Below are positions 1-36,000 of a stretch of 64,000 bases of DNA, piece after piece. Every line of letters starts with the position of its first letter. Within the stretch, counting starts at the first letter, position 1. The position numbers were made by a program, and so were the translations under genes. This DNA comes from Malurus cyaneus samueli (lineage: Eukaryota; Chordata; Aves; Passeriformes; Maluridae). The notes beneath the pieces were generated by a model. It was not told the DNA's origin and did not search any database. It was given only the letters and a program-made list of their open reading frames with translations. The stretch lies in assembly GCA_009741485.1 (NCBI GenBank), contig CM019236.1:44110118-44174117 (forward strand), read 5' to 3'.

Positions 1-3000
1 CTTTTAGTACTTTAGACTTCAAGGCTTCCTCAGTATTTTGAGTGTGAAGAGGCAGTATTACAGTTTGCCAAGCTTACAGGAACAGTTTTATGGATTGTGC
101 AACTACTGGATTTATAGGATAATGATAACCTAATTAAGTACAGGTTTTGGGGTGGATTTAACTTGTAAAACTCTAGCAGCAGAGGCACAATGAATGCTTA
201 ATGTCAAGTTTCTGTAAACATGGTTTGTTTTATTTGCTGACAGATAGGGGGGGAAAAATTACGTTTCCTAAAGAACAACTAAAGTAACCGACCTCACAGC
301 TTTCCAGTTTTCATTCTCTCTCCTATAAATGTAGACAATGTTTTCAATAATAAGCAGAACATTTCTGTTTTTTAAAGATTGTTTTTAAAGTTGTTTTTGG
401 CTGCAGCTGTTCCTGCTTTCAGGGGAGCTCTGAAAGTTTCAAGATAATCTACCTCTCTGCTTCTCAAGGGTATGGGAAAATGTACAGTTCAAGTTTGGGC
501 CATCTGTCATTTTTGAGGCAGTTTCTTCTTGTTGCTAGGACTTTGCAATAGACAAAAATGCATGACTGGACTTCAAAAAATAGGCTTGTGAATCAATGCT
601 TGGCAACAATAACAGAGCTTAATTTCTGTTTTGATACCCTAGTAGAAAAGCTTTCAGGTAAGATCCACTGAAACTTACAGTGCAGGCTAGAATGATATTG
701 TTTCAATCAGGTTATATTGCAACATAAACCACTGAAAATGCATATGGAAACAAATTCAGTCAGGGTTTGTGAGGGGAATAGACAAGTCATATCAAATAGT
801 TACAAACAGGAAACTGTTCACACCCTTGCTTTCTCGCAACTAGTTAAGTATGTAATGAAACAGTGAGACAATTACAATGGCAAGTAGTATTATGTTGTGA
901 TTGATGTCCCTATTCTGATGCTTCTCTAGCCATTTTACTGAAGTGGCTTGTCTGTAAAAATAAGATGTGACAATCAGGGACAGGATAAAAAAGAGCAGCT
1001 TAAAATCCAACTTGATTGAAAGTGCATTGAAGTTATTCAGTATTATGTGATGCCTAGATTTGATTTGAGGGGGACTCCAAATCCCTTGGTTGGAAAAGCA
1101 AGGGTCTTTAAATCTTTGTAAGACAATCATGAAGTACTGACAAGAGCTCTGCCTGAAGGCTATGGGGATATGAAGATGAGTGCAGGGTGCTCACTACTAA
1201 AACGAATGAGATGGGGCTAGTTCCTGATTTTCAAGGGGTGGAGTGGTGCTCTTGAGGGTAGTGAGCCTTGATGTGTAAGAGCTAGTGTCTACAGAGGAGA
1301 AATAAACCAGGTTTTCTTCTGCTATTAATTCTGTGGCATAAAATACTACATGAGATGAATTTGAAGGACTTTTGGGCTGTATTCTGAGAATGGGGCTCTG
1401 AGGTGCCTCAGTAGGACAACCTGCGTCTGTCTGGGCAATAGCTGGGATGGGTATGTACGCATCTCTACACTGGTGATCTGTATGAGGGCATACTAAGATG
1501 ATTTTGCTTATATAGAAAGCTTCAGAAAACTGTATTAAAACAATCATCAAGCATGCACATAAGAGGAAAAAAAATGAGTGAAAACATCCCAAATGTAATT
1601 ATTCTTTAGGAGTTGTTCTACTCTTAACTTCCATTTTACCATTTGCCTCGGTTATGTCTGTTGTACAGGTATTTGTTTGTATAGAGTTGTTGGAAGTGCT
1701 GTTTAAAATTACTTTTTTCTGAATTTTTGTGGAATGTATTGGCCAGAGGGCTTGGAGTAAACTCATGGCAGAGAAGTTTTTCCAGTAACCTTGTCCCTAG
1801 TGAGGTTATATTAAAACAGCTCTAATAGATTACTTCTTTAAGAAAGCCAGCATCAAACAGTAAATGAAACTGCTCTTAAGAGTGAAGCAATAGGACTAGT
1901 TTTGCCTTTTGCCTATAGCAAGTAGTTTAAAAAAGATTTTTTAAAAAGGGCCTTCACAATGTGCTCTAACTCCTTTCATATCCCAGAAAATCCATGCATT
2001 TAAATATGGTATCTTCTATAGTGCTGCAGTGGTAGTGAACCAAGCACTGCATGGAATGAGCTGTGTTGTATGGAACTGAATTGTGTTCAGGTGAGAGAAT
2101 GAAATGAAAGAACGGAAAAGAATGAAATGAAAGAATGGGAAACTTACCAGAAGCTGACGCTTTGAGAAGGGCAGCGTTGTAAAGGGTGAGCCTGTAGGCC
2201 ATTACAGTCAGATTCTCTATAAAGCAGGTGCAATGAAGTAGGAATTAACTAGACATGATACCACTGGCTTTTTCTCTGGATATACGCAAAGTTTAATGAA
2301 TTTTATTCTTTTTAGCAGTTCTTGATAAGAAGGTGCAATCACTGAAGTAAAAATGCATATTTTAAGCTAGTTATATACTCTCAAATTTCTACTATCTCTA
2401 TGAAGGTTTTCACAGTATTCTTGAGCAAAAGGAGATGTTTGAGAAAATAGATAGTTTGACAAAAGGATTTGGAAGGCAAATATTTAATGGAATATCAAAG
2501 TGCAATTTAGTAACAACATTACTGTTACTAGAATGTGTGGTTCAGTGCTTGAAAATGCTTTCTCATTTTAATACAGAGCCTGAATCATGACAATTATCTT
2601 AAAAATAGGAGGGTATATTTAACACTTATCCTTCTTGATTATTGCTGTTTTTTTATAGGATGTGTTAGCAGTGCAATACCAAAAAGTTTAATTGAAATTA
2701 CCAGGTAATATTGATTGTTCTGAATTTTGGTTTTATAAGGACCTTTTAAAAAATTGCTTTATAAGAAATCTGCTTATGCAGACTTGACAAAATGCAGGCA
2801 AGTAACAAAGTCAGTGTGCTCTTGGCATATGTATAAGAAAGGAATAGAATATGTGAACTCTTGTGTGTAGGTAACGATAACTCTTGACAAGATGCCGAAA
2901 AATACTTATGCTTGTTATGTTCAGAAATGTATCTAAATTCATGTATTGATTCTGTTGCGCTAAAAAAAAAAATGTACCTGAATTTTGGTATTAAAATGGG

Positions 3001-3023
3001 CTTTGTGTACCTTCTTCTTGTAG
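1..3023 (+). other. GAK: GAK intron 1, 3' part
   Basis: No coding exon is recognisable. The stretch is AT-rich and ends in a pyrimidine-rich tract and TAG at 3021-3023, directly before exon 2. Around 2096-2134 a 16-base purine-rich motif (GAATGAAATGAAAGAA) occurs twice. Minus-strand open frames here (up to 131 codons) resemble no known protein and are probably chance. The promoter and the first coding exon, which encodes the N terminus through the start of the Gly-rich loop, must lie upstream of the window. Confidence 0.75.
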
Positions 3024-15000: not shown

Positions 15001-18000
15001 CCAATTTCTGTGGAAAAATCCAGCTTTGTAATGTAATTATAATCAAAAGTCTGTCTGATCATCTTGTTTTGTGCAAGAATGCCTACTTGTATGCAATCAT
15101 ATTAATATCAATACTGTGCCGTGATGTTGTGCTCTCTGGAATGTTGTGTTTAAAATTTAGCCTTAACTATGCCAGCTGCTTTTGAAGCCCTGCATTAAAG
15201 TTTGTCTGCTGGAGGTGATTAAGTAGGTTTGCCAGTGATAAGCTGCACTTTAAGAAACTGATACTAAAGAATGGTAGTCTTTCGCTGCATTGACTGTATG
15301 AAACATATGCCTTACTTCCAGATTTTTTAAATTCTTTTTTCATTAAAACAGACAGCAGATTAAACAACGTGTTAAGTAGAACACTAGTATCTCCTGACTG
15401 CAGGAATTACTATTTTTTCAGTAGGTCAAAGTTAAGGAGAGGTTTAGAACTGTGAGCCTTACAGCAAGATGTAGCCTGTATGTGCATTCACTTCCAGCTT
15501 TATAGGCAACATACTTTATGTCATATCCTGGAATGGGCTCCATAATAAAGTACAATTATTTTTATTCAACTACTCTAGGCCTGGCCGTTGCGGAATGTGA
15601 CCAGACTTATGGAGGGTTCTTTGATATTCTGAGGGGTGGAACAGAGCGATTTTTCACTAATATTAAGGATACATCTTCTAAAGTTTATCCATCTGTGGCC
15701 AAGTGAGTAAAAAAAATAAAAATTGAAAGTTGTGTTGGTAAGAGTTTTAAATGAAGGCTCAAGGCTTTACTCCAAGAAATGTAAATTGAGCATATTTTTC
15801 CAAGTTTGAGCTGTAATAGCTGGTAGCTAACCTGAGATTTTGTGAATGATATTAATACAAAAGTTACTTCAGCAGTCATATTCTGGAACTGAGAATGTTG
15901 CGGCAAAAACTTGTCATAAGTACTGTTTGCTCTGCTGTATTTTAAGTATTAAAAACTTTTGAGAGATGAGCAGATGGGGGCTGGAGCAGCATGGAGAATT
16001 GAATTATTAGGTAGGACCTTCATGTATAAGGGTTGAATTCAAAAGATGGAGTGGTGAAAACTACAGATCAAGGGAATGTATGTAAGGCGGGAAAAACTGC
16101 CGGAAAATAAGGTCTTCAGGTGGAATCCTATGCCTTCAAGATGGTGTGAGAAGGATCTGCACTGTTTGTCTCCTTTACCCTGCATTGCATGGATAATTAC
16201 TCTCACGTTTAGATGTATATGTTTTCAGATTTGTGAGATTATTTTTTTCTAATCAAGTTGTCAGTCCCATTTCAAATGTTTCTAATACTTCCTTATCAAT
16301 ATTAAGCAGTCTGTACAATTTATACATTTTCATCTCATAATAAAATTCTGTGCCATGTTAAAGGGTTTTCTTAGCCCTAATAAGAGCAAGTAAGTCACTA
16401 CTGAATACCATGTCTGAACTAGAGCCTCCGAAAGAATACTGAACCCTATTTCTTATTGTAGGCTTTATGTCCCTTTAAATGGAATAGTCTTAAAGTGAAG
16501 TCTACTTCCTGCATAGGTTTTTTCAGAATTTGTTTGACTTGTGCATAGTCCTGCTCTAAAGTGTTTATAGTATTCTGGTAAATTGTATTTGTGGGTATTG
16601 CACCTCTGTAGGCACCTCAAGTGTATTTTTAGCTGTTTGCTCTTAGAATTAGTCTGTTTAAGCTTCCTTTGTATGGTTAAGAAAGGTGAGGTCCTCTGTT
16701 TTTTAAAGGCTGCAAAAACTGCACAGCTTTGGTTTGTCTTTAAGCTGTCTATAGAAGTAACTGGGACAGGGACATCAAACTTTTCTTACGGGGGAAACCA
16801 CACAGACACAGGACAGGGAGTGTACAAGGGGAACAAACTATTGCATGATGCAAAGCAGTTCTAATGAAGTTACAGTTCCCACTTTCCCGTGGCTGTGTAT
16901 TAGATCTTAATATGTTCTTGTTGTACACTACGTGCATCTGAAGTAATCCTGTGCTTCACTTTCTTATTTGCTTGTCCTCACATGGTGTTCTGGGTGTGCC
17001 TGCATCACTTAGTTATGTTTGAAGCAGTTTGCTCTTCCTTCTCTTGCAAGTGGTTTCTTCCTTAAAGACCACTGGAAGTTTAATTGCTTTTTTGAAATTG
17101 ATCTTGTGCCTTTTTTCCCTTTCCTGGTAGTGCTTTAGGACTGTCTAAAATTGTCTTTTTAATATGGAAAGGCTTGTGCTGTGCCTATACCTTATTTTTA
17201 TTTCTCTTACTTTACAGATGTGTGTAGCTTTTTGCTTTGTGTGGTTCCCTTTGCTTCCATAGTAAGTGTGGTGGGCAAGGAATAAAACAGTAGCTGTACA
17301 TCCAACCACATCTGCAGAGCTCATCTAGCAACTTCTGAAGTACTAGATAGTGCGTACTTGCTGTCTGAAAAGGTTCTGTTCAGTTTTCATGCTCTTCTGG
17401 CAGTTTGTTTAGATTATGGTGACTGCCCAAACTAGTATGCCTCTTCTCAGTTGGTATTTAGTGTTCTGTGGCTGAGCACAACAGCTTAGTGCATGGCTTG
17501 TGGAATTTCCTAAATATTAGTCAAAGGAAAACTCACTACTTCTACCTCTTGTTTGTTTGAATTACAGAAAGTCACATGTAGATGTTTACTAGAATTGACT
17601 CTCTTGAAAATGTAACTGTTTGACCTCCTAATTTGTTTGTTTTAATGGGTGGGTATATTGTCCCAAAAAAGATCAATTAGCCGAACCTTTTCAAACTAAT
17701 GAGAGATACACATTTGCATGGACTGTGGTGGATTGACAGAGGATTGTCAGACAGTGTATGTTGTGTCCTGAGATTTGTCATAAGGAGATCAGTCTGTCTC
17801 AGATATTTTGGAGGCGATTGGTTAAATAAGGGTTTGTGTTTAGGTTACTCTTGAACATAATCGTTGACTCAACATGTGAAACTGTCAAACTTTAAGTTCT
17901 CCACTAACATAACCCAGTCTTCGTGTTGTGGAGCACTTTCTGTCTCCATACAATTGTGGTTTTGTTTTCATGCGTTATCTGGGTGAATTTAGTCATTGTG

Positions 18001-21000: not shown

Positions 21001-24000
21001 TGAATTGAGTGGTGTTGCTAGTAAGAAGTCAATGTCTGAAAGTCTTCCCGAGGGAATGGGTGTGAGTACTGCTGTTTTTTTGCATTTTCTAGTTCTGTGC
21101 CTATGTTGCAAGTTGCTGATTAACCTTGGTGTTACAGCATTGAAGGGATAATGGTTCTGTGTTCTAGGGCTGTTTTATTAGTTGGTCTTTTATCTTGATA
21201 CCACAAAATAATGATATTAGAATGACTGCATGTTTTCTTGCTTGAAGCTGTTGAATATGAACAACAAATAACATTTGATGCTTCTCCATCGTATAAATCT
21301 ACTATGATCATCACCAATTTTCATAAGCAATTGTTATTAGTTCTGAATGTAAATTTCTGCCTTTATTAGTTTGTCTGCAACAGTATTACCACCTGAGCTT
21401 ACACAATGAAGTGTATCCTTCCAAATGTGCAAAAAAGTTTGAAATTTGAGGCCTTGTCTTATGCAGGAACCTTGCTTCCTTATGCAAGGTTTCTCAAGGG
21501 TAAGGGTTTTTTTGAATGTTTTGCTAGTGAGATTCAAACTGTCTTGTGGTTTCAATTTGAGACAGTGGCATTATTATTGTTAGGGCACTGATTATGCCAT
21601 TCTGCATAAATACTATCTAATGGCCTTGCATTCAGAAGATTTTTTCCCCCTAATCTAAAATCCTCCTGGCTATCCTATATTCAGTTGTCTTTTAATCAAT
21701 CCCTCTAACTTCCGTGATTACTAGCAAGCAGTAAAGAATCAAAACTTAATGTTATTTCTTGGCGTTTCAAAATTTGAGTGCAGTATCCATGGTCTGCTCT
21801 TTAAGTAATATCTTGAAACTTGTTAGGTTATAAAAGTTTTGTTAGTGCCTCTGAATTCATTAAAGATGCATCATAGTGTTTTGATGACATTTTGATATTC
21901 TGGAATTAAGATGCTACTGAGATATTTAAGTTAGGGATATCTAAAACAAATTCTGTTGGTGGATTTATTCTTATTTTACTAATCCAAGAGCGCAGACCTA
22001 TGTAGTAACATGCAAGGCTATTGGCCTGCACTGGATCTCTTCAGTTTTTTTCCCTTGCTTTTTCATTCTGCTACATAGATATTCTAGAGACAAAAAAAAA
22101 GTAGTGATCTTAAATTAGTAAATTATTGACATAAAGTGGATTATTAGGTAAATGTGCAGGGAGTAGGCCTAGAAAAAATTTAACGATTATGGGGGGCAGA
22201 TTGTTTCTTGAAAAGGCTGCTCTTCTAAACTGTGCACAGTTGTATGAGAGATGAGTAATGATTAATGCCTTGCTCACTATGAGAGTTCTGAAAGTGAATT
22301 TTTGGAAGAATGATTTAAATGAGGAAAGAGATTGAGGTACCCTCTGTGTTGAGTGCAGGTAGCTTGGGGTGCAGCTGCAGTGGGTGCTGCAGGTTCAGCT
22401 CTGAGTGGGAGCCTGAGGCAAGAGGTGAGGAACTGCTGAGAGCACACGACTTGTGATCCTACCAGGCGACTGGAAACTGAGACACAGCAGGAGCTGAAGA
22501 CTCAGCAGGAAGACCCCAGACTTGGGGAGGTATGAGCTGTGAGGGTCTGGAAGCCCATGGATTCCTTTATTCAGGAGTCCTTCCTGGGAGGCAGCAGCTG
22601 CAACTGTTACTGTTGCTGCACCAGGATTAAAGCGCTTCAAGCAACCAGAGATAGGAGACTCTGCTGTGGGAAACCTGGGGTCCAACTGGTGAGGAAGTCT
22701 GGTCTGAGCATGTGAATGGGGGGAGTGTAGGTTGTCAAGCAGGGCTCCCATTGGCTCACCAGCTGCAAAGGGGCTTCAGTCCTGGCGGTGACAAGTCTGG
22801 TGGAGTTGACTGCCAGAGTCCTTTCTGAATGGCCAGACAGGGAAGTGTTCCTAACACTTTTTCCATATGGAATTTGGATATTGGGCAGCATGACCATCTG
22901 TGCCAGATAGTAACATGCCAGAGTTGCATAATTTAAACTTTGATGTTTAAACTAGTAGTCTTTCTTTTAAGCATTGAGATATCCTCTATTAAACATGTAA
23001 ATGTATCCTCATTGGGCTTTCAAACTGACCCTCTGCAGTGAATTTTTATCAATAAAAGCAGGGCCTAGAGGAGTGAGTTAAAGATTAAAGGCATATGTAC
23101 AAAATCCAACAGATGGTTTTTGTTCAACTGATTGAAATGAGTAACTGCTTAAACACGGTGTCTGTTCTGAAATCTTGACATCTGAGGTAAAAAGCTTTAG
23201 ANAATGATACAGTATTTGTGGTGGTGGGTGCAATCTGAGAGATCCGGCTTTTACACTTGTAGTTGAATAGCTATGTCTCTCAGTGATAACACCAATGTGT
23301 TCTGTTTCAGTTACGCAAAAGGAGACTTGGATATATCATACATCACTTCCAGAATTGCTGGTATGTTAACTGTATCTTTCTTAAACATAATTTCTCATTG
23401 TTATTAGTATATAAAAAATTTCACCTGCTGTTTATTCTATCTTCAGTGATGTCCTTTCCAGCTGAAGGTGTAGAATCTGCCATCAAAAATAACATAGAAG
23501 ATGTGCGGTTGTGTCTTGACTCTAAACATCCTGGCCATTATGCTGTATACAATCTCTCACCAAGAACATACAGGCCTTCAAGATTCCATAACAGGGTGTG
23601 TATAGTTTTTGTGTTTTTCTCTAAAAAGCCTTGCAACACAATGTTTTCATTTTACCTTCAGCTTTTTATTATAGATTAGGTTAAAGTAGGTTATTAAAAA
23701 AGATTACAAAAATGGATATAAACACAAGTTCAAAGAGTAAGCTATTTTCTGCTTATCTTTGCTTTAAATTCAAACCTAACTGGTAAGTGACTAATCTTTA
23801 ATCTTACTGACTAAAACTTGTTTTTCTGGGATAATGTTATCTTTGAAAACATGCCCATGTACCTTATGTGTTTCAAATTTAAGTGGAGAATACTTAAAGT
23901 AATTCAAGTCTTACTAAAATTTCAATCTCTCTTATATTCTACTATCTTTCTTTCTCAAGGGCATGGTGACTGATTTGCATAACCTGTTCACTGGAGTTTC

Positions 24001-30000: not shown

Positions 30001-33000
30001 ATCTATTTGCTGGAGGTGGCATTAAGTGTTCCCAGTGTTTTACTGCTAACACTCATCAATGCTTAGTGACTGAAAAAGAACAGAAGTAACTTGTTTATTT
30101 GTTTACCCATTTCTCAGAATTCTGTTGTCTGACTAAATGAGTATGTTCTGATTTTGGCAGATACATTGAATACATGTGTGACATGATGGCTGAAGAACCC
30201 ATTATTCCTCACAGCAAGCCCATCCTGGTCAGATCAATTGTCATGACTCCCGTTCCGCTTTTCAGTAAGCAGCGTAATGGCTGCAGGCCTTTTTGTGAGG
30301 TTTATGTGGGAGANNNNNNNNNNNNNNNNNNNNNNNNNCTAGCCAAGAGAATATAATCACATATAAAGGAGTCCATTTAAAACAGTTTTAAAGTAATACA
30401 TTTAAAAGGACACTTCAGAAGGCATGCAAAGATAGCGTTTTTTGTGCAACTTCAAGTCAGCCATCCATTCCAGACGAATTTTAGGGCTTTTCTGAACTGA
30501 CTATTTTAATCACTCAACTGCTGATAGAAAAACTACTTTCGCATTCCTGATGGGAATATGAAAGTCCAGAGAATGCTACTAAGAAGATGCATGAAGCTCC
30601 TGCTCTTACACAAATCCAAGTGACAGCTCACTGATAAAGGTAGCCTGTATTTGTTTCCTAGCCTTAGTCACAGTATCGGTGAAAAGTCTTGCCAGTGCTT
30701 ACGAGAAGTCATACAGTAATAGCCCAGAAATATGAAAAATAAAACTGATTATGAAATCTTTCCTTGTAAATGAGCATTTACTGAACATCATAGCCAGAAA
30801 TCAAGTAATACAAAAAGTTTTGCCACAGGTGATCCTTCCCTGTATTGGGCACCACTGGAGCCCACCTGTAATTTTGTGTCCAGTGCTGGGCTCCTTAGGA
30901 CAAGAAATATGGTCATACTGGAGAGAGTTTCCCTGATTCTTCCATCCCTCCCATTCCTTTCCTAGAAGATACACTAAACCCGCTCTCGAATTAGCTGTGA
31001 GCAGAAGACATTCACAATGCCCAGCTTCTAAACAGAGAACCGTTTCAAGGAGAAATCTTGAAACGTGGTAGATGATCTCTGTAAAATTTCTGCAGTGAAC
31101 TTCAGGGGGCAATTAACAGCACATACTAAGGGCCCATTGAATATCTTTCCATCAAACCTCCTAACCCAGAACACCACAAACACTGTTGATGCATCACATT
31201 TTAGCTGACAAATGAAAAAATTCTAGTCTTTTCTGATCAGTGAATAAATGGCAGAGCAGCCACAACAAAGAAACTCTATCATGAAAAAAAGTGATATTGT
31301 ACAAGGAGTATAACCTAAGCTTGGTTAAATTTTGACAGTTTTATGCCTTTTTCCAGAGGACACTGAACCATAGAGTAGTTATTTTTTGTGCATTAAGGGA
31401 TCACTCCATGGAGTTTTTCGTTTTAGGTGTTCTGGAAGGTCTTGCTGAACCTTACAAAGTGACAAGATTTGATGCTCACCCTCCTACTCACAAAGTAAAA
31501 AAGAACATAAGGGAAAGCAATTTCAGTAACAGTAATGATGTATGAACACACATGTATGTCCCACATGTACAGAAACTGGTTGAAGAACTGTCTGGATCAA
31601 TTTCCACAAAGCTTCAAGTTATTCTGTACTTTGCACTACTCCTCCTTATGTTTTACATGGATTTCCAAGTTTAATTTGGATTTATTATCTGGAGAAAAAA
31701 AGAACATGGCTCTCTTTAAAAATAATTGAAGACAGGCTTCATTAACAAGTTTTATTGATCTTGCAATGCATTTGCATCTGCAGGTGAATTAAAAAAGGAA
31801 ATATGCATTCTCCTCAGTTGAACAAAGACAAGTAAAAAAATGAGCTACAAAAATTGAACCTGACTTTAGAAAAAGGGAATAAAACTACATGAATTTTTTC
31901 TAGTTTGTTTTGTACAGGCAGTCTCTGGAATCCCACTTTTCTGTTGAGTGGTATTTTCTTTGTTCCAGTTTATCTATACAGAATTAACGAAGTCTGGCTT
32001 GTTGTGCAATTTAACAGATAATAACTGCTGCCTCAAAAAAACTCGCTAGGGGCTTTTCTCACAAATAAGATAATTACCAACACTGAAGTATTTCCAGAAA
32101 CGTTTTTCCAAAGCCCATCTATATGACAACATTTAGAGTGGGACATACTTCAGAAGGCTTGAAAAGTGGATTCATAAGTGAATGAAAACTTCAAACACTT
32201 GTCGTGAACAAAGAACAGTAAATAAGCACAGTACTTGTAGATAACCCAGTAGGATTAATTAAACTGTAACAAAAAAAAAAAAACAAAAAACCAAATCTCC
32301 ATTTGGCTCCTATTAAATTTATCATTACCTTGGCTTGCAGTCGTCCTCTAGAGTTTGTATCTGGCATATAGACACATGAGAACATCCTTGGACTTATACC
32401 AGTGGAATTTACTGCTTTCCATCTCATTTTAAACTCCCTAAAGAAAAAAAAATAACCACCACTTAATTTAGTTTAAAAAGAGATAAAAACGTGTATTTCT
32501 GATGTCTGCTTATTCTCCAGGGGCCTTTAGAAGCTAGAAAGCTAGAAGGACTTCAGTATTCTCTCATTTTTATGGTCTGTGTCTGTGATCAATCCTACAC
32601 CTGCGTACACTCTCTGCAATTTTGCGTGCAGACACAAGCTGTCTACAGGGGCTAATAAGCAGTACACCATTTGCACTGCATGTGCCGTGCGAGGATCACT
32701 ACCGTTTCCATGACTGAGACACGATGCTCTGCTCAGCACAAGTACATCAGATATCAATGTTCCCAGTCCTGCATCAAATTGAAGTGGAGAAGAGGCCTGC
32801 TCATGTTGCACGTGTCCCCACCACTGCTACCCCATCATCTCCCACTGTTCTGCCTAAATTCAGCGATCCAAGCTCTGTAACAACCACATCCCTTCCCCGC
32901 ATAGATTTCACTTTCAAGATCAAGCCAAAGGGGACAGAAGAATCAAAAAAAAAGTAACCACTGAATCTAAAAAACAATAACATTGCTGTTCAGAGGCAAG

Positions 33001-36000
33001 TCATACTCTGTACTTACTTCATTTTGTCATATTCCTGAGAAGTGGTGGTTACTCTTTCATGACCATATTTCTTGTCCTAAGGAGCCCAGCACTGGACACA
33101 AAATTACAGGTGGGGCTCCAGTGGTGCCCAATACAGGGGAAGGATCACCTGTGGCAAAACTTTTTGTATTACTTGATTTCTGGCTATGATGTTCAGTAAA
33201 TGCTCATTTACAAGGAAAGATTTCATAATTCAGTTTTATTTTATCATATTTTCTGGGCTATTACTGTATGACTTCTTCGTAAGCACTGGCAAGACTTTTT
33301 CACCGATACTGTGACTAAGGCTAGGAAACAAATACAGGCTACCTTTATCAGTGAGCTGTCACTTGGATTTGTGTAAGAGCAGGAGCTTCATGCATCTTCT
33401 TTAGTAGCATTCTCTGGACTTTCATATTCCCATCAGGAATGCGAAAGTAGTTTTTCTATCAGCAGTTGAGTGATTAAAATAGTCAGTTCAGAAAAGCCCT
33501 AAAATTCTGTCTGGAATGGATGGCTGACTTGAAGTTGCACAAAAAAGCGCTATCTTTGCATGCCTTCTGAAGTGTCCTTTTAAATGTATTACTTTTAAAA
33601 CTGTTTTAAATGGACTCCTTTATATGTGATGTATATTTCTTGGCTAGTCCATTGCACAATTTATTTTTCTGAGTGTACGTTATTTAGAAGAGTAATGATA
33701 GCTGTGCAGTTTAGTAAGATTCTGATAGTTTTTGTTTATTTGTTGGTGATGAGACACCTGACTCAAGGTCTTTTGTTTTTTTAGTGGCAGTAATAGATCT
33801 ATTTATGTTCTGTCTCAACTGCATTTAAATCTTTCAAGATGGAGTATACTTTCAAATAAATGGAAATTGTAGCAAAGCAAATGCTTTAAAATATTTTAAT
33901 GCTGATAGTACTTTGCATTATGTGAAAGTCACAACACTGTGCACACTGTTCATGTGGATTTATGCAGTTTCCTGAATTTCTTGTTTTTAACAGATGGCTT
34001 CAATGAAGATGTTTCAGATTCAGTTCCATACAGGTTTTGTGCCCCGAAATGCCACTACAGTGAAATTTGCGAAGTATGTTGACACCTCTTTGTACCAGAC
34101 TGGAAGAAGTTTTCTTTGAAACTGCTTAACCTGCCAGGGGGAGGAAATAGTGTGTGTAGGAAGCAGATGCCTTTGATTGCAATATGAGTGTTTTATTGAC
34201 TAACCTTAGGGAAACAAAATGTTTTGTTCATGATACCAGAAAAGCTAGGTATAACAATACCACATGTTTAAAATGGGAAAAGTAAACACATACAGCTTTT
34301 TTTGTGTCTTATACTAGTTGCTTTGAAGTTTTGTTTTGGACAGCAGTAGGTCTAGTCCAGTTAGCCATCAGTATCAAGAATCGACTTCTCTCTGTCTTTA
34401 CAGGTATGATCTGGATGCCTGTGACATTCAAGAAAAGTACCCTGATTTATTTCAAGTCAATCTGGAAGTAGAGGTGGAGCCCAGAGATAGGCCCAGCTGT
34501 GAACAGCCACCTTGGGATAACATGAATATAAAGGGGCTGAACCCCAAGATCCTCTTTTCCACTCGAGAGGAACAACAAGAGATTTTATCAAAATTTGGTA
34601 AGGAATCCCTTGAAAAAGTTGAGAAAGTAGACTAGAGAATGTGAAAAAGTTTTCAATGTTCTTAGTGTTTGAGGCTTCTGTTTTATTTTTGATATTCCAT
34701 TAATTTAAAGAAATGTAAAAAGGTGTTTTTTTGTAAGTACCAGTTAAAAATATTCATTCTGTGGAGGAGTATATTAAGTTATCCCCCAGTAATTCATTAT
34801 AATTATCCTTGTCTTACTTTTCATTGTACTTATATGTGCTTGCTTTAAACCTAGGAATATGCTATTTACAGGGAGGGACTTTAAGCAATTGGAATTGTAA
34901 CAGCAGTATTTGTAGGCAGTGTCCTGATTTGGCTAAACTGGCACCAGTATCATTTCACTTAAAATTATGTGAGCATTCCTTACAAATAGTTTTAGGGAAG
35001 AGTGTTTTTGTCAACATTATTATGCATATCCATGCATGCAATGCTGTAATTAATATCCTCAACCTTTTCCTAGGATGACTTTCCAGTAGATTTTTTTTGT
35101 TTAATCCTACATATTCAGTGCTTCATCTGTAGATGCCTTCATTAATTCCAGTTAATGCTATTCAGTATCTTTCTTCTTCTCCTGGTGTCAGTAATTAGCT
35201 TTGACATTTTCATTCAGGCTCTTAAACCTTCTGTGTGTTTTGAGGATAAGAAGCGTAATGAAGATTACTATGGTGATTTTAGTGATACATGAGATCTCAC
35301 CCTATGCTATTAATACACATACATCTCAAGTACATTTCTTTCAATGTAAGATGGTTGTTGCTGGCCTCTTTTCCTTGTGAGTGTTGTTTGTATTCTGACT
35401 TAGGCTATTTTCTGTTTAAGTTAACTTAATCCTACTGTGAACACAACTCTCAGCTCTCTAAAGCTAAGGTGTTTCATTGATGGTGAGGATCTGTGACAGT
35501 TACATTTTTTCTTAAGTCATTTCCCTTTTTCTGATTGTTACTTGAAATGTAATGGTTTCAGATTACACTGAAAGTATTAAGATTGGTGGGAAGGGAGTAG
35601 GACAACTGTGAAATGATTTTTAAAACTTGCTATTAAAATTGAATTTACTCTTGCATTAGTCATGATCTTTCTATAATATGTTGTCTGGGACAGACTATTT
35701 TTTCAGCATCTCCAAGCTAAAACTGAGAATGTGGAAGGAGAGTGAAAATTGCTCTACCAGTTGTGTATTTAAATTTAGACAAATAGGTTTCTCCCAGGCA
35801 TACATCCATTTTTTCAAACAGTGGATGAGTACTGACTAATTTAGGAAGTTGTCTTAATTTGCCTTAAGAAAACTTTGTTTTGAGAGATGATACAGTAGAA
35901 TGTAACTTTGCCCCACTCATCCTTACACAAGTCACGTAATACTGATTTCAGTAAAAGAAGAAATGTAATAAGCAGTTAATAGCAACATAACCCCTTCATA

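Follow-up and report, generated by a model that had tools for sequence, protein, structure and literature searches.

The GAK locus and its inverted block

The window, the whole stretch of 64,000 nucleotides of Malurus cyaneus samueli (superb fairy-wren) that was analysed, carries GAK on its plus strand from the kinase domain to the last residue, at about 3.0 to 54.5 kb (tblastn with human GAK as the query). The best matches of the protein spliced from the window were bird GAK proteins. A query spliced from exons 16, 18 and 19 matched a single solved structure, auxilin (3n0a), which confirms the domain and is uninformative about exon order. Rfam gave nothing in the window at gathering scores, and 30339-33647 had no match in the phage collection.

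Exon 16, which opens in frame immediately downstream of a CAG acceptor, halts at a run of N. Its tail of 42 nt lies on the minus strand, where the same tblastn search with human GAK gave a match at 33064-33017, and is followed on that strand by a GTAAGT donor. This search found no match to exon 17 in the window; exon 17 was located by frameshift-tolerant alignment and splice signals. Both the exon 16 tail and exon 17 carry proper splice signals on the minus strand; from exon 18 on, the gene is back on the plus strand. In the minus-strand direction the block gives the exon 16 tail, intron 16, exon 17 and intron 17, and then continues at 33648. The features are as follows.

30161 to 30313, plus strand: first part of GAK exon 16, coding for YIEYM...CEVYVG, plus two bases of the codon after it (tblastn, queries human GAK and M. 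elegans P0060)
30314 to 30338, no strand: residual assembly gap of exactly 25 N (count of the N run)
30339 to 33059, minus strand: block of 2721 nt, almost certainly a misplaced gap fill (alignment and joining test)
30339 to 30916, minus strand: left arm, a piece of intron 17 that is reverse-complementary to the right arm (self-BLASTN and base alignment)
32329 to 32437, minus strand: GAK exon 17 (frameshift-tolerant alignment and splice signals)
33018 to 33059, minus strand: GAK exon 16 tail, which supplies the rest of the D codon of VGD, followed by ERVTTTSQEYDKM and two bases of the K codon (tblastn and alignment)
33060 to 33647, plus strand: right arm, intron 17 in correct orientation, running on into the downstream intron (self-BLASTN and base alignment)
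33234 to 33278, plus strand: intron sequence used as a false exon (FYFIIFSGLLLYDFF) by two public models (flanked by a CAG acceptor and a GTAAGC donor)
33994 to 34074, plus strand: GAK exon 18 (MASMKMFQIQFHTGFVPRNATTVKFAK), normal (tblastn and frameshift test)

Self-BLASTN of the window (E up to 1e-10), the trivial self-match aside, gave just one inverted pair of more than 150 bases, 33059-33647 against 30916-30339, which aligned in reverse complement over 590 columns with 97.8% identity, 13 gaps and no mismatches (E = 0). Base 33059 belongs to exon 16 and its match in the left arm is due to chance; thus the block spans 2721 nt (30339-33059), and 588 nt (33060-33647) remain as the right arm proper. 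The spacer between the arms is 2.1 kb long, and self-BLASTN found no long repeat in it. The first-pass annotation had described reverse-complement arms, a minus-strand order of the exon 16 tail followed by exon 17, and 25 N at one edge with the other edge gapless. All of these were found again, with N only at 30314-30338 and none at the junction 33059/33060. Its inverted block of 2.7 kb also stands, with the end refined from 33060 to 33059. Apart from the 25-N run, the sole N in the window is a lone one at 23202, amid called sequence.

Re-ordering of the block and exon order in other GAK proteins

For the re-ordering, 30339-33059 was placed in sense orientation after 30313 and one arm was dropped. 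In the resulting sequence, all 66 aligned residues of exon 16 (the first codon of which spans the splice acceptor) were identical to those of the Malurus elegans protein P0060 by tblastn, exons 18 and 19 followed in order, and no self-repeat was left at E 1e-10. The gene was restored at the left scaffold edge without loss or surplus, and the support at the right edge is a single observation, the continuity of the arm with 33648. These results bear out two earlier proposals, that re-orientation and removal of one arm would rejoin exon 16 with its own tail and that the intron would become continuous at 33648. Plain tblastn found no match of exon 17 in the re-ordered sequence, because of the indels that exon 17 carries.

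A comparison with related birds, which had been proposed as a check, was run at the protein level. Our GAK comparison set was the best 120 of 4965 matches. The contiguous pattern of exons 16, 17 and 18 was present in 113 of these 120 listed proteins, and three more fit it with one residue changed, giving the normal order in 116 of the 120, including that of the congener M. elegans. The four exceptions among the 120 are P0047, in which both exon 17 and the start of exon 18 are absent, P0053, which has exon 17 and no exon 16 sequence, and P0006 and P0008, both very probably derived from this assembly.

The last two proteins are UniProt A0A8C5UQ95 (P0006) and A0A8C5UMZ2 (P0008) of Malurus cyaneus samueli. 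Exact 9-mers of the plus strand of the window cover 99.9% of them, compared with 89.8% of the M. elegans protein, 81.6% of that of Onychostruthus taczanowskii and 66.3% of that of chicken. They also include peptides translated from outside the exons of the window (from 2927-3019 in both models and from 15506-15577 in P0006 only). This coverage and these non-exon peptides suggest that both models were very probably predicted from this assembly. In both of them the reading is CEVY-FYFIIFSGLLLYDFF-MASM, in which the right arm (33234-33278) supplies 15 residues and exon 17, together with the last part of exon 16, is absent. The FYFIIFSGLLLYDFF peptide occurs in none of the remaining 118 among the 120 listed GAK proteins. 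As separate observations on these models, 2927-3019, which serves as the N-terminus of both, is probably a false first exon, and the use of intron sequence 15506-15577 as coding in P0006 and not in P0008 is probably a second annotation error.

Error signature of the arms and exon 17

In the base-by-base alignment, the arms differ by 13 single-base indels and by no substitution: relative to the right arm, the left arm lacks 12 bases and has 1 extra. This alignment overruns the arms slightly, and one substitution and a 4-base gap in the overrun are not counted. Such indel-only differences between the arms are long-read error rather than divergence.

Exon 17 is 109 nt long instead of the expected 118 nt, with an intact splice acceptor (TTTAG) and donor (GTAATG). 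It reads EFKMRWKAVNSTGISPRMFSCVYMPDTNSRGRLQAK instead of the conserved sequence EFKIEDGKAVIPLGITVQGDVLIVIYHARSTLGGRLQAK, owing to the loss of about 12 bases and the gain of 3. M. elegans has this conserved sequence as its exon 17, and so do 92 of the 113 proteins that match the contiguous pattern. The query for the frameshift-tolerant alignment was a human GAK segment with the first residue set to the bird E, and it differs by one residue from EFKIEDGKAVIPLGITVQGDVLIVIYHARSTLGGRLQAK. About 15 single-base indels recovered 38 of its 39 residues; a count of 12 missing bases and 3 extra ones scored best at four penalties and is not a unique solution. With a penalty of -6, exon 17 scored 102, while 100 shuffles reached no more than 20 and 100 random windows no more than 15. 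At -4 the score was 132, against at most 49 in shuffles and 57 in random windows, and at -8 it was 72, against at most -4 and 1, respectively. The indels net to -9, so that the frame stays open by luck. Thus, the earlier claim that the phase is kept through exon 18 holds for the net frame and fails for exon 17 itself, which is frameshifted by about 15 indels.

The same frameshift test gave no indel in 10 of 11 control exon segments, among which the exon 10 control scored as indel-free although it is misread as KVYPSVA. The remaining control, exon 24, showed 3 events because its DNA stretch was set one codon (3 nt) longer than the peptide. Near the block, exons 14, 18 and 19 and the head of exon 16 had zero indels, and the exon 16 tail of 42 nt within the block had none either. 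The error density of exon 17 resembles that of unpolished long reads.

A separate observation concerns exon 10 (15680-15700), about 15 kb off. The window reads KVYPSVA here, and 113 of the 120 listed GAK proteins, including that of M. elegans, read KVIQSVA. Only P0006 and P0008, of the same assembly, share the reading of the window among the 120. A run of T has probably gained one base here and an A has probably been lost, which would make a compensating indel pair. Judging from the sequence, there may be a second unpolished fill at exon 10.

Origin of the block and comparison with known gap filling

The start of the block coincides exactly with the left scaffold edge and its end connects to 33648, and these limits fit a full fill of one gap. 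We are nearly certain that the inversion and partial doubling within GAK are an assembly artefact of long-read gap filling, and the inverted block is very probably not a biological feature.

Other explanations have some evidence on their side. Scaffolders do flip short contigs, and one side of the block borders a gap here, so that a short scaffold contig may have been wrongly oriented before any long-read filling. This is quite improbable, since there is no N on the other side, the block has the error density of long reads, unlike exons 14, 18 and 19 and the head of exon 16, and the left arm lies wholly inside the span of the right arm. A palindromic PacBio read, whose hairpin adapter was missed and which then served as the fill, would predict reverse-complement arms with indel-only differences. 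When an adapter is missed, however, the read turns back immediately and leaves at most a short adapter between the arms, whereas 2.1 kb without a long repeat separates them here. Nor does such a read predict a block that starts exactly at the scaffold edge in exon 16, and we consider this origin less probable again.

Template switching is known to produce inverted-duplication arms around an inverted middle. At face value the printed sequence shows just this arrangement, with no N at the 33059/33060 edge. Even so, a real germline inversion with a 0.58 kb inverted duplication, made by replication-based template switching in the sequenced bird, is very unlikely, and we rank it lowest among these explanations. 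The arms of a real inversion should differ by substitutions together with indels, or be identical, and none of the 13 arm differences is a substitution. The probability of such a count is about 8e-10 if substitutions are assumed to make up 80% of real changes, and 1.2e-4 if they are assumed to make up half. Moreover, exon 17 carries about 15 indel bases per expected 118 nt, like unpolished long reads, and one breakpoint falls precisely at the N run. A real inversion would also mean the loss of exon 17 from a gene that keeps its order in 116 of the 120 listed proteins. Equally unlikely is a true inverted-duplication rearrangement of GAK exons 16-17, perhaps heterozygous, that a noisy fill happened to overlie.

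If the block arose by long-read gap filling, the scaffold of Malurus cyaneus before filling would have had a gap of about 2.7 kb, from after 30313 (exon 16) to before 33648 (intron 17). Filling would have yielded two overlapping products, a full-gap fill of 2721 nt and a right-flank extension of 588 nt, whose overlap would have gone unrecognised. The full fill would then have been attached in the wrong orientation to the extension of the right flank, with a minimum-size gap of 25 N remaining at the left. Such a join would make the exon 16 tail and exon 17 look inverted, and would double 0.58 kb of intron 17 as inverted arms. We infer from this arrangement the role of the right arm as an extension of the right flank of the original gap, as well as the right extent of that gap, the separateness of the two fill products and an overfill of the PBJelly type with a slip of strand. 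PBJelly may have been the program used on this assembly.

Features of an overfilled gap are present here, namely a minimum-size gap beside the fill, an unmerged overlap of 0.58 kb and indel errors in the fill. The M. cyaneus assembly is reported to have been gap-filled with long reads, and polishing is also described in the relevant passage (PMC7757076). As a counterpoint, the reported polishing would be expected to mend exon 17, yet exon 17 is still unmended. The first-pass annotation had suggested that a gap-filling contig was inserted backwards and its overlap left unmerged, and this reading gains support from the re-ordered join, the indel-only arms, the errors of exon 17 and the reported gap filling.

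The misassembly would account for two public GAK models without exon 17 and with a false exon, and selection scans or exon-loss studies using P0006 or P0008 would be misled. The passages returned by a literature search for a reversed fill held no description of one. The fingerprint seen here, 25 N followed by unmerged, indel-only inverted arms and a frameshifted exon, may be used to spot further reversed fills in long-read gap-filled assemblies.

With regard to known systems, the printed architecture of the GAK block is similar to that of an inverted duplication with inversion made by template switching. However, a template-switch event would lack error-like indels, an N run and a breakpoint exactly at a scaffold edge, all of which the GAK block has. 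PBJelly defines a gap as at least 25 N, and the passages concerned describe overfilled gaps, in which the flank extensions have no identifiable overlap and jointly exceed the predicted size (English et al., 2012; PMC3504050). Among the causes suspected there for unexplained overfilled gaps are inversions in the input assembly. In a passage of PMC8848313, PBJelly fills made from simulated reads of fruit fly, thale cress and hummingbird had mean identities of 88.61-95.17%, so that a noisy fill is to be expected. The GAK block is like the PBJelly overfill of PMC3504050 in its 25-N unit, unrecognised flank overlap, fill larger than the gap and noisy fill. On the other hand, it would be a full fill on the opposite strand, which those passages of PMC3504050 do not describe. 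It is also like the overfilling in Trematomus borchgrevinki, where, according to the passage in PMC9635638, unmerged long-read extensions from both sides of a gap inflate the assembly and duplicated BUSCO genes go up. A hidden scaffolding error was proposed for T. borchgrevinki, whereas in GAK the scaffold order would be right and the fill reversed.
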